From an uncultured Treponema sp. (lineage in GTDB: Bacteria; Spirochaetota; Spirochaetia; Treponematales; Treponemataceae), in contig CAMOIE010000006.1 in NCBI GenBank assembly GCA_946615905.1, positions 62,001 through 126,000 of the forward strand: a stretch of 64,000 nucleotides of DNA, read 5' to 3'. Within the stretch, counting starts at the first letter, position 1. Every line of letters begins with the position of its first letter. The translations under genes and the position numbers were made by a program. Under the pieces are notes generated by a model that made no database searches, was not told the origin of the DNA, and was given only the letters and a program-made list of their open reading frames with translations. Below are positions 45,674 to 47,827 of the stretch, piece after piece.

Positions 45674-45829
45674 CACCCTGTTAAGAAAAAATTCTTAAAT
45701 TTATATAGATATTACCTTAAATAACGCGGTTTTATTTAAAAAATCATCAAGAATCGGTTAAAAGTATAAAAAGGTTGGACTTTCTGAATTTTATTTTAAA
45801 AGAAGACTGGCGGGAATTTGAAAATGAAT

Positions 45830-45950
45830 TGCGCAAGGGCTGGAGCCATGCCGGAGGCAGCCACCGCAGCTTGAGCAGAGCGAAAGCGAGGAGGCCGCGC
45901 GTTAGCAAGTGGCGGAAGGCCGTGGGGCAAAAAAAGTTTGCGCCCGAAAA
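45830..45950. repeat. GC-rich intergenic element upstream of leuA
   Basis: The 332-bp gap between the response regulator and the leu leader holds this GC-rich block. It includes GGCAGCCACC (45856–45865, also at 8100–8109) and a GGGGCAAA/TTTGCGCCC hairpin near 45924–45945. Short reading frames here lack ribosome sites and family resemblance. The flanking DNA is AT-rich, so the block looks inserted. Confidence 0.45.
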
Positions 45951-45958
45951 AAAATGAC

Positions 45959-45987
45959 TTGACTTTAATTATACTTCAGTTTATGTT
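45959..45987 (+). promoter_or_regulatory. Promoter of the leu leader and leuA (leaderless type)
   Basis: TTGACT (45959–45964), 17 bp, TATGTT (45982–45987). The leader-peptide ATG at 45994 lies 6 bp downstream, at the expected transcription start. Confidence 0.7.
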
Positions 45988-45993
45988 GTATTT

Positions 45994-46047
45994 ATGAAGT
46001 TTTTATCACTACTAGCACTAACCTTCTCCTCAAGAGCCGAAGCTTAA
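45994..46047 (+). CDS. leuL: Leucine leader peptide of the leuA attenuator
   Basis: Seventeen-codon frame encoding MKFLSLLALTFSSRAEA. Four of 17 codons are leucine (TTA, CTA, CTA, CTA), within seven residues, and CTA/TTA are choices seldom used in the neighbouring genes. There is no Shine–Dalgarno; the ATG is at the predicted transcription start. It is followed by an imperfect hairpin and a perfect intrinsic terminator before leuA. This is the layout of ribosome-mediated attenuation: stalling at scarce Leu-tRNA would prevent terminator formation. Too short for automatic gene callers. Confidence 0.75.
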   Translation: MKFLSLLALTFSSRAEA

Positions 46048-46055
46048 GGTAAGTG
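46016..46055 (+). promoter_or_regulatory. Leader hairpin overlapping the last Leu codon
   Basis: CACTAACCTT (46016–46025) pairs with AAGGTAAGTG (46046–46055), nine of ten positions, enclosing the leader stop codon. This is the expected 1:2 hairpin of an attenuator. I could not assign a certain antiterminator fold. Confidence 0.5.
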
Positions 46056-46086
46056 GTGTAAAAATTCTTTTAAAGAGTACACAATG

Positions 46087-46120
46087 AGACCTGTTGCTTT
46101 GGCGGCGGGTCTTTTTTTTT
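46087..46120 (+). terminator. leuA attenuator terminator
   Basis: AGACCTGTTGC (46087–46097), loop TTTG, GCGGCGGGTCT (46102–46112): eleven contiguous pairs counting G·U, directly followed by a run of nine T (46112–46120). It lies 22 bp upstream of the leuA ATG with no gene in between except the leader peptide. Confidence 0.88.
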
Positions 46121-46141
46121 ATTTAAAAGGAGCGAAAATTT

Positions 46142-47827
46142 ATGAAAGCACACATGGACGCAAGCAAGTACAAGCCGATTGCAGACATCCCCCTGACAAA
46201 CCGCAAGTGGCCGGCCGCGAAAATCACGAAAGCCCCGGTCTGGTGTTCGGTCGACCTCCGCGATGGAAATCAGGCCTTAATCGACCCGATGGGAATCGAG
46301 ACAAAGCTGGCATTTTTTGACCTCCTTGTGAAAATCGGTTTTAAAGAGCTTGAAATCGGTTTTCCGTCAGCATCCGACACCGAGTATGAGTTCTGCCGCC
46401 GCTTGATTGAAGAAAATAGGATTCCTGAGGACGTTACGATTCAGGTTCTCTGCCAGGCCCGCGAAAAGCTGGTCAAAAAGACAATGGAGGCAATCAAGGG
46501 GGCGCCCGGAGTAATCTTCCATATATACAACTCGACTTCTCCGGCACAGAGAAAATACACTTTCGGAAAATCCAAGGAAGAAATCATAAAAATCGCGGTT
46601 GACGGCGTGAAATGCATCCAGGACTGCATGAAGGACTTGAGCGAGGACGAGAGAAAGAAAATCCGCCTTGAGTATTCGCCAGAGAGCTTTTCAATGACCG
46701 AGATTGACTATGCGGTTGAGATTTGCGAGGCGGTGAAAAACCAGTGGGGCTGCTCGCCCGACAATAAAATTATCCTGAACCTGCCGACAACGGTTGAATG
46801 CGCGACTCCAAACGTCTACGCTGACCAGATTGAGTATTTCGCAAGCCATATAACAAACCGGGACTCCGTGATTATCTCGACCCACTGCCACAATGACCGG
46901 GGAACGGGAGTCGCCTCCTGCGAGCTTGGTCTTATGGCCGGGGCTGACAGGGTTGAGGGCTGTCTTTTCGGAAACGGTGAGCGAACTGGAAACCTCGACA
47001 TCGTTACCGTCGCATTGAACATGTTCAGCCAGGGAGTTGACCCGGAGCTTGACTTCCACAACCTGCCTGACCTTGCGGACGCATATATGGAATTCACCAA
47101 GATGGAGATTTTCCCCCGCACCCCTTACGCGGGAGGACTGGCCTACACTGCCCTCTCAGGCGGACACCAGGACGCAATCGCCAAGGGATTTGCCGCCCGC
47201 TCCAAAATGGACAAAAACGCAGTCTGGGACGTTCCATACCTGCTGATTGACCCCCACGACATAGGCCGCAAATACGAGGGAATCATCAGAATCAACTCAC
47301 AGTCAGGAAAAGGCGGAGCTTCATTTATCCTTGAGCACAACTACGGTTACGCGATTCCGAAGACCATGCAGCCTGCCATCGGGGATTTGGTCAAGGCAGC
47401 CTCAGACAAGGCCCAGCGAGAGCTTAAAACCGATGAGATTTTGGACCTGTTCAAATCTCAGTGGCTGGGCAAAAAATCACCGCTTGCAATCATCGATTTG
47501 GCGGAGACCCACTTGGAGGGAGGCTCCAAACCCAACGAGAACGTCGCCTGCCGCGGCGTAATCAGCTGGAACGGGGAGAAGATTTCTATCGGAGGAAAGG
47601 GAAACGGTCCTTTGGATTCATTCTGCTCAGCCTTAAAGGCGACTCCGGCTCCCAAATTCTCAATCACAGCCTTCCACGAGCATTCCGTCGGTCAGGGAAA
47701 CGACACGTCTGCCGTGGCATACGTCCAGATTGAAAAAGATGGCGGAGAGATGGTCTGGGGTGTAGGCCAGTCATCGAACGTTGGCAGGGCAGGTATTGAC
47801 GCGGTTGTCTCCGCGCTGAACCAGTAA
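46142..47827 (+). CDS. leuA: 2-isopropylmalate synthase
   Basis: First step of leucine synthesis: 2-ketoisovalerate plus acetyl-CoA. The 561-aa protein is the long (type 2) form known from actinobacteria and E. coli-distant lineages: it begins SKYKPIADIPLTNRKWPAAKITKAPVW, then SVDLRDGNQALIDPM, IEIGFPSASDTEYEF-like and ISTHCHNDRGTGVASCELGL (HxH metal ligands), NGERTGNLDIVT, and ends in the regulatory domain. AAGGAG precedes the ATG by about nine bases. Expression is predicted to be set by the leucine attenuator upstream. Confidence 0.96.
   Translation: MKAHMDASKYKPIADIPLTNRKWPAAKITKAPVWCSVDLRDGNQALIDPMGIETKLAFFDLLVKIGFKELEIGFPSASDTEYEFCRRLIEENRIPEDVTIQVLCQAREKLVKKTMEAIKGAPGVIFHIYNSTSPAQRKYTFGKSKEEIIKIAVDGVKCIQDCMKDLSEDERKKIRLEYSPESFSMTEIDYAVEICEAVKNQWGCSPDNKIILNLPTTVECATPNVYADQIEYFASHITNRDSVIISTHCHNDRGTGVASCELGLMAGADRVEGCLFGNGERTGNLDIVTVALNMFSQGVDPELDFHNLPDLADAYMEFTKMEIFPRTPYAGGLAYTALSGGHQDAIAKGFAARSKMDKNAVWDVPYLLIDPHDIGRKYEGIIRINSQSGKGGASFILEHNYGYAIPKTMQPAIGDLVKAASDKAQRELKTDEILDLFKSQWLGKKSPLAIIDLAETHLEGGSKPNENVACRGVISWNGEKISIGGKGNGPLDSFCSALKATPAPKFSITAFHEHSVGQGNDTSAVAYVQIEKDGGEMVWGVGQSSNVGRAGIDAVVSALNQ

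Follow-up and report, generated by a model that had tools for sequence, protein, structure and literature searches.

The window analysed here is a 64-kb stretch of contig C6 from a 2.96-Mb Treponema genome (G000), whose close relatives, as judged by a LeuA similarity search, are rumen and gut Treponema. The putative attenuator region is flanked by a divergent response-regulator gene and by leuA, and no co-directional gene adjoins leuA in the window. The leuA product scored 708 bits against NCBIfam TIGR00970 (cut-off 697) and 770 bits against PRK03739. Upstream of the gene lie a promoter, a short leucine-rich reading frame, and an intrinsic terminator, together with several strands capable of pairing with one another (Table 1). 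The leucine codons occupy codons 4, 6, 7, and 9 of the frame; a preliminary description had noted a 17-residue leader with four leucines in seven positions, and the cluster is in fact slightly denser, with four in six. The 11-pair terminator with nine T that it had placed before leuA was located at the same positions, as the stem-loop AGACCTGTTGC-TTTG-GCGGCGGGTCT (46087–46112), three of the pairs being G-U. A GC-rich repeat (45815–45945) adjoins the 5′ side of the promoter, and five partial copies of it (70–100% identity) are found elsewhere in the genome.

Table 1. Features of the leuA leader region (window coordinates) and related leaders elsewhere (coordinates within the locus named)
Feature	Position	Strand	Basis
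Promoter: −35 TTGACT (45959–45964), 17-nt spacer, −10 TATGTT (45982–45987)	45959–45987	+	Sequence
Leader peptide frame, MKFLSLLALTFSSRAEA, 17 codons, stop TAA (46045–46047)	45994–46047	+	Sequence, comparison
Leader Leu codons	TTA 46003–46005; CTA 46009–46011, 46012–46014, 46018–46020	+	
TTCTC element	46024–46028	+	Nucleotide conservation across leaders
Protector strand 1, includes Leu codons, pairs with 46052–46066	45998–46013	+	Minimum-energy fold of free leader RNA
Protector strand 2, AGTGGTGTAAAAATT	46052–46066	+	Fold and cognate pairing
Antiterminator 5′ arm, GCCGAAGC, last leader codons	46036–46043	+	Folding with upstream masked; covariation
Antiterminator 3′ arm, GCTTTGGC, terminator top and loop	46096–46103	+	Folding; covariation
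Small hairpin nested in antiterminator	46056–46082	+	Folding
Intrinsic terminator: 46087–46097 × 46102–46112, loop TTTG, T tract 46112–46120	46087–46120	+	
leuA Shine–Dalgarno sequence, AAGGAG	46127–46132	+	Sequence
leuA, 2-isopropylmalate synthase, 561 amino acids, ATG at 46142	46142–47827	+	NCBIfam TIGR00970, PRK03739
His leader, L087	211–330		
His leader, L089	2086–2205	−	
Leu leaders outside the family: L201, L204, L206, L212, L214, L215, L216, L219, L221			

As a chance baseline, 666 mini-frames of 8–40 codons on both strands of the window were used. Four leucines in seven codons occurred in 13 of these, the leader frame included, and a consensus promoter at leaderless distance was present for the leader frame only (1 among 666). 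The fold of the leader transcript outscored 199 of 200 dinucleotide shuffles (z = −3.3).

The LeuA similarity search yielded 23 relatives with DNA upstream of leuA; 20 shared the layout, and three (L005, L008, and L026) were without a leader. A covariance model was built from 21 leaders, and the search of other Treponema that had been recommended in the preliminary description was carried out with it, giving matches in 133 of 200 genomes of the genus; LeuA was found in 183 of 196 genus genomes. At the level of the family Treponemataceae, 150 of 274 genomes and 7 of 20 genera contained a match, and all 40 matches in a phylum sample fell inside this family. Among 113 matches examined, 108 stand directly before leuA, the other five being a pair of His leaders, an additional Leu leader, and two false matches. 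Weak matches such as L058 and, in G017, L086 were rejected as leaders. The model undercounts, because five of 20 leuA regions from genomes with no match still have divergent leaders (L180, L181, L184, L187, and L188). Loss of the Leu codons or the terminator among relatives had been named beforehand as grounds for giving up the attenuator; both are kept before leuA in more than 100 genomes. As judged from these sequences, more than a hundred Treponema species have the leucine-leader design upstream of leuA, and the cultured rumen strain Treponema ruminis RU1 has the element (L012) with the leader MKTLSLLLLFDFLSK.

Some Treponema leuA genes have no leader at all. In three of these (L189, L190, and L193), a −10-like GATAAAGT lies a few nucleotides 5′ of the leuA ATG, so near that leuA itself may be leaderless there. 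Three other loci (L003, L022, and L084) carry a repeat insert, GGAGGCAT...CATGCAACGCCGCTAACGCGGAG, between terminator and leuA, which supplies its own GGAG near leuA. The source genome gave no second match to the covariance model, and no attenuator of this type was found in it before hisG, trpE, or the ilvD–ilvB operon.

For detailed analysis, 110 leaders were parsed. In each, a cluster of Leu codons lies within an intact ATG frame that stops close to the antiterminator arm, the stop codon itself varying (45 TAG, 37 TAA, and 28 TGA). CTA, the rarest Leu codon, with a share of Leu codons in genes of 3.2% in the window and 1.5% in relatives, accounts for 315 of the 542 Leu codons (58%) in leaders, and 103 of 108 Leu leaders contain two or more. 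A rare codon combined with a scarce tRNA would make a sensitive sensor, and the preference may be due in part to pairing with the protector strand. CTA is nevertheless kept in L042 and L046, whose protector helix has its anchor at the start codon (ATGAATTG × CAATTCAT).

A −35/−10 pair ends 5–8 nt before the leader ATG in 104 of the 110 leaders; counted over all 110, the distance is 6 nt in 66, as in the window, and 7 nt in 31, and the promoter spacer is 17 nt in 86. The corresponding promoter score level was reached by 95% of real upstream DNA and by 14% of shuffled upstream DNA. These values agree with the earlier placement of the peptide ATG at the predicted transcription start. Because the promoter is so close, transcription is predicted to start at the leader ATG, and the leader mRNA should be leaderless, its 5′ end lying at or within ~2 nt of that ATG. 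In another spirochaete, Leptospira interrogans, mRNAs without a leader are common (PMC5243855).

An alternative, to which we assign a low probability, is that the leader is functional but its mRNA starts farther upstream, which would place the frame behind a conventional 5′ UTR. Four leaders (L109, L117, L135, and L142) fit such an arrangement, having no close promoter but a Shine–Dalgarno-like GGAG or GAGG before the ATG, and L180 and L184 resemble them; the attenuator can thus work with a normal UTR, and the leaderless start is usual, not essential. Against the alternative as a general description, nearly all of the 104 leaders with a close promoter, and likewise the leader in the window, lack a Shine–Dalgarno sequence. 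The leaders without a close promoter are L109, L117, L135, L142, L180, L184, and L187, most of them with a Shine–Dalgarno-like sequence, which suggests that certain lineages have switched from a leaderless start to conventional initiation.

Folding of the leader RNA identified an antiterminator that had not been named in the preliminary description, in which GCCGAAGC pairs with GCTTTGGC, so that the helix overlaps both the end of the frame and the terminator loop. The hairpin described earlier upstream of the terminator does exist and is probably the one at 46056–46082, best drawn as GTGT-(AAAA)-ATTCTT/AAGAGT-ACAC, with 10 pairs and a 4-nt bulge. It is compatible with the terminator and was ruled out as the antiterminator, a role that belongs instead to 46036–46043 × 46096–46103. 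Very different arms still pair with each other (GCCGAAGC/GCTTTGGC, CCGTAACTG/CAGTTGCGG, and GCCGTTTG/CAAACGGC), and the arm pairs co-vary between lineages (GCYGAAAGC/GCTTTTGGC, GCTAAAAGC/GCATTTTAGC, and GCTGCAAGCG/CCTTGCGGC). For tests of pairing, 80 divergent leaders were picked as representatives. Cognate antiterminator arms gave a duplex of −16.6 kcal/mol versus −13.4 kcal/mol for non-cognate arms (shuffled arms averaged −10.3), a difference that exceeds all 20,000 permutations; this result is strong but is not a calibrated probability, since the sequences are related and not independent. The protector duplex behaved similarly (−16.1 versus −12.6 kcal/mol), and in 104 of the 110 leaders the best protector duplex includes bases of a regulatory codon. 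In the terminator, three pairs show changes on both sides among 21 aligned sequences.

The switch was tested by folding truncated transcripts, their 3′ end lying just past the terminator loop. When the ribosome was placed at the middle Leu codon, the antiterminator was predicted in 109 of the 110 truncated transcripts, and when it was placed at the stop codon, in 15. For the window, the antiterminator (−25.2) was the preferred fold of RNA beginning at 46036, and the terminator that of RNA beginning at 46046 or 46054. Both folding and covariation indicate that the two structures are mutually exclusive. The geometry is that of an attenuator: a median of 19 nt separates the last regulatory codon from the start of the arm, and from there to the last base of the stop codon the median is 13 nt, so that the arm is covered by a ribosome at the stop but left exposed by one at the regulatory codons. 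As a switch test, equilibrium folding of complete transcripts was uninformative, as the terminator nearly always wins, and truncated transcripts were used in its place. With complete transcripts, the terminator forms in 90 of 110 leaders despite a stalled ribosome, so the antiterminator must form first, during transcription. In free RNA ending 3 nt past the loop, the antiterminator forms in 74 of 110 leaders, the window included, and the protector is thus not always favoured; termination without translation may for this reason be weak.

From these parts, whose conservation, covariation, and geometry come from the sequence and its comparison with relatives, we infer where transcription starts, that the frame is translated, that the ribosome stalls, and that leuA responds to leucine. 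It is highly likely that the region is a ribosome-mediated transcription attenuator, through which the supply of charged leucyl-tRNA determines whether leuA is transcribed. Once transcription has begun at or next to the leader ATG, a ribosome would initiate on the leaderless 5′ end. With ample Leu-tRNA, it would reach the stop and cover 46036–46043, the terminator would form, and transcription would end at ~46120. With Leu-tRNA scarce, the ribosome would stall on the rare CTA codons and leave 46036–46043 free; this strand could then pair with newly made 46096–46103, blocking the terminator so that leuA is transcribed. If the leader were not translated, the strand with the Leu codons would pair with 46052–46066, shutting off the antiterminator arm and favouring termination. 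The comparative evidence is the main support for this mechanism: Leu frame, terminator, antiterminator, and promoter spacing are all kept before leuA, which favours the interpretation as ribosome-mediated attenuation first offered for the window alone.

An unbiased count of 5-mers in the distal leader gave TTCTC as the most enriched, with occurrences in 58 of 70 divergent representatives versus 3.4 expected; YCTC was present in 67 of the 70. Over the full set, TTCTC is found in 91 of 110 leaders (leaders within L028–L143 among them), in three of the four Shine–Dalgarno-type leaders, and, by eye, in the His leader L087. It appears in all three reading frames (33, 26, and 32 of the 91 leaders) and is therefore conserved as nucleotides. 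Its offset from the leader ATG is 34 ± 2 nt in relatives and 30 nt in the window, and its distance to the ATG is the tightest, the standard deviations being 2.9 to the Leu run, 5.3 to the antiterminator arm, 6.6 to the stop, and 8.7 to the terminator. TTCTC may pair with the antiterminator arm in free RNA (CTTC × GAAG in the window), but this was rejected as the full reason for its conservation, the arm varying between lineages while TTCTC is constant. One possibility is that RNA polymerase pauses at TTCTC, giving a ribosome time to engage the leaderless 5′ end; we know of no ribosome-loading coupling device of this kind described for attenuators.

Variants were also found within the family. 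In genus g17 of the Treponemataceae, His leaders of the same layout, MTEIRLHLHHHLFSA and MTELRLHLHRHLFSA, stand before hisG–hisB (L087 and L089). In G069, a second Leu leader with a terminator (L084, 413–540) precedes a PhnW-like aminotransferase and a cytidylyltransferase gene, and this arrangement adjoins the 5′ side of the usual leader and leuA. The His leaders weigh against a reading in which the hairpins serve a non-translational RNA or protein sensor (a leucine riboswitch, a T-box, or a protein-controlled terminator) and the mini-frame is incidental. Strong covariation of the RNA folds would suit such a sensor, as would TTCTC, which is kept as nucleotides rather than codons and could bind something. 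However, Rfam searches at gathering and permissive thresholds gave no credible match, the best sub-threshold matches being scattered (best leader family Thr_leader, 21 bits against a gathering score of 55), the ATG frame with its Leu cluster is kept in 110 leaders despite differing stops, and the replacement of Leu by His codons before hisG is simply explained only by a codon reader. We regard a sensor of this type as very improbable. A constitutive partial terminator accompanied by a chance Leu-rich frame, with no regulation, would agree with the preference of the complete RNA for the terminator, which most leaders show regardless of where the ribosome sits, but is scarcely credible in view of the cognate covariation of antiterminator and protector, the enrichment of rare codons, and the wide conservation.

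Leucine-rich leaders that could belong to attenuators also occur outside the Treponemataceae, in other families of spirochaetes, where 9 of 27 leuA regions contain a terminator and a frame in which four or more of seven codons are Leu; several of the nine have a promoter at near-leaderless distance. Their sequences are unlike the Treponema leaders, and they are best taken as unrelated-looking analogues. In family f36, leuA is preceded by short frames whose last residues before the stop are LYLLPRL or ILLLLPRL (L209, L211, and L225), and in L209 and L211 a long hairpin with no T tract follows the frame; these could represent a different, translational control by leucine. The broader proposal that leaderless leuA attenuation is phylum-wide in spirochaetes, with TTCTC (~35–39 nt after the start) pausing polymerase or timing ribosome loading, is offered tentatively and is on the whole doubtful.

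The attenuator proposed here would extend leader-peptide attenuation to the Spirochaetota, in which it appears to be common and no curiosity. More than 100 putative attenuators with a frame at the predicted transcription start would form a natural set for studying the timely loading of ribosomes on nascent transcripts that lack a 5′ leader, and the element would offer a simple entry point to the leucine supply of treponemes in rumen and gut. In a 2010 survey (PMC2965389), Firmicutes were added to the Proteobacteria and Actinobacteria, until then the only groups with known leader-peptide systems. Our search of open-licence papers found no report of a leader-peptide attenuator in a spirochaete. 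Since the element is general in the Treponemataceae and has analogues elsewhere in the phylum, the missing description of a spirochaete leucine leader points to a lack of study.

Several known systems share single traits with the Treponema leader. The ilvB (WRC-14-1) motif, found in Leptospira only (7 sequences) and not named as an upstream-frame candidate (PMC8632094), is likewise a structured RNA at a branched-chain amino acid gene of a spirochaete, but it stands before ilvB. In the actinobacterial LEU element, a run of Leu codons before leuA also pairs with downstream RNA, in that case the leuA Shine–Dalgarno sequence, with a pseudoknot possible and no terminator described (PMC1262725); the Treponema leader was ruled out as a LEU element, its Leu run pairing with 46052–46066 and a terminator being present. 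The likeness to actinobacterial leaderless leu leaders drawn in the preliminary description is apt for Streptomyces lividans, in which leuL1, before leuA, and leuL2, before leuS, are both leaderless and a terminator is present for leuL2 but absent for leuL1 (PMC8079986). As predicted for Treponema, the leuL1 frame begins at the transcription start and carries a Leu run before leuA, but no sequence relation was seen to leuL1, leuL2, or trpL1 of that species (PMC8079986). The same applies to the leaderless trp leader of S. meliloti, trpL (PMC7298713), which senses Trp. With the trp, his, leu, and ilv attenuators of Proteobacteria, the Treponema leader has in common the short frame rich in regulatory codons, a putative protector, the antiterminator and terminator, and presumably the decisive position of the ribosome; it differs in its spirochaete host, its sequence, which matches no Rfam leader family, its predicted leaderless start, the single gene leuA that it precedes, its run of rare CTA codons, and TTCTC. 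As judged from sequence, it is very probably a functional leucine attenuator working by a mechanism known from other bacteria, and what is new is the phylum and the TTCTC element, which is explained by neither the codons nor the known hairpins.
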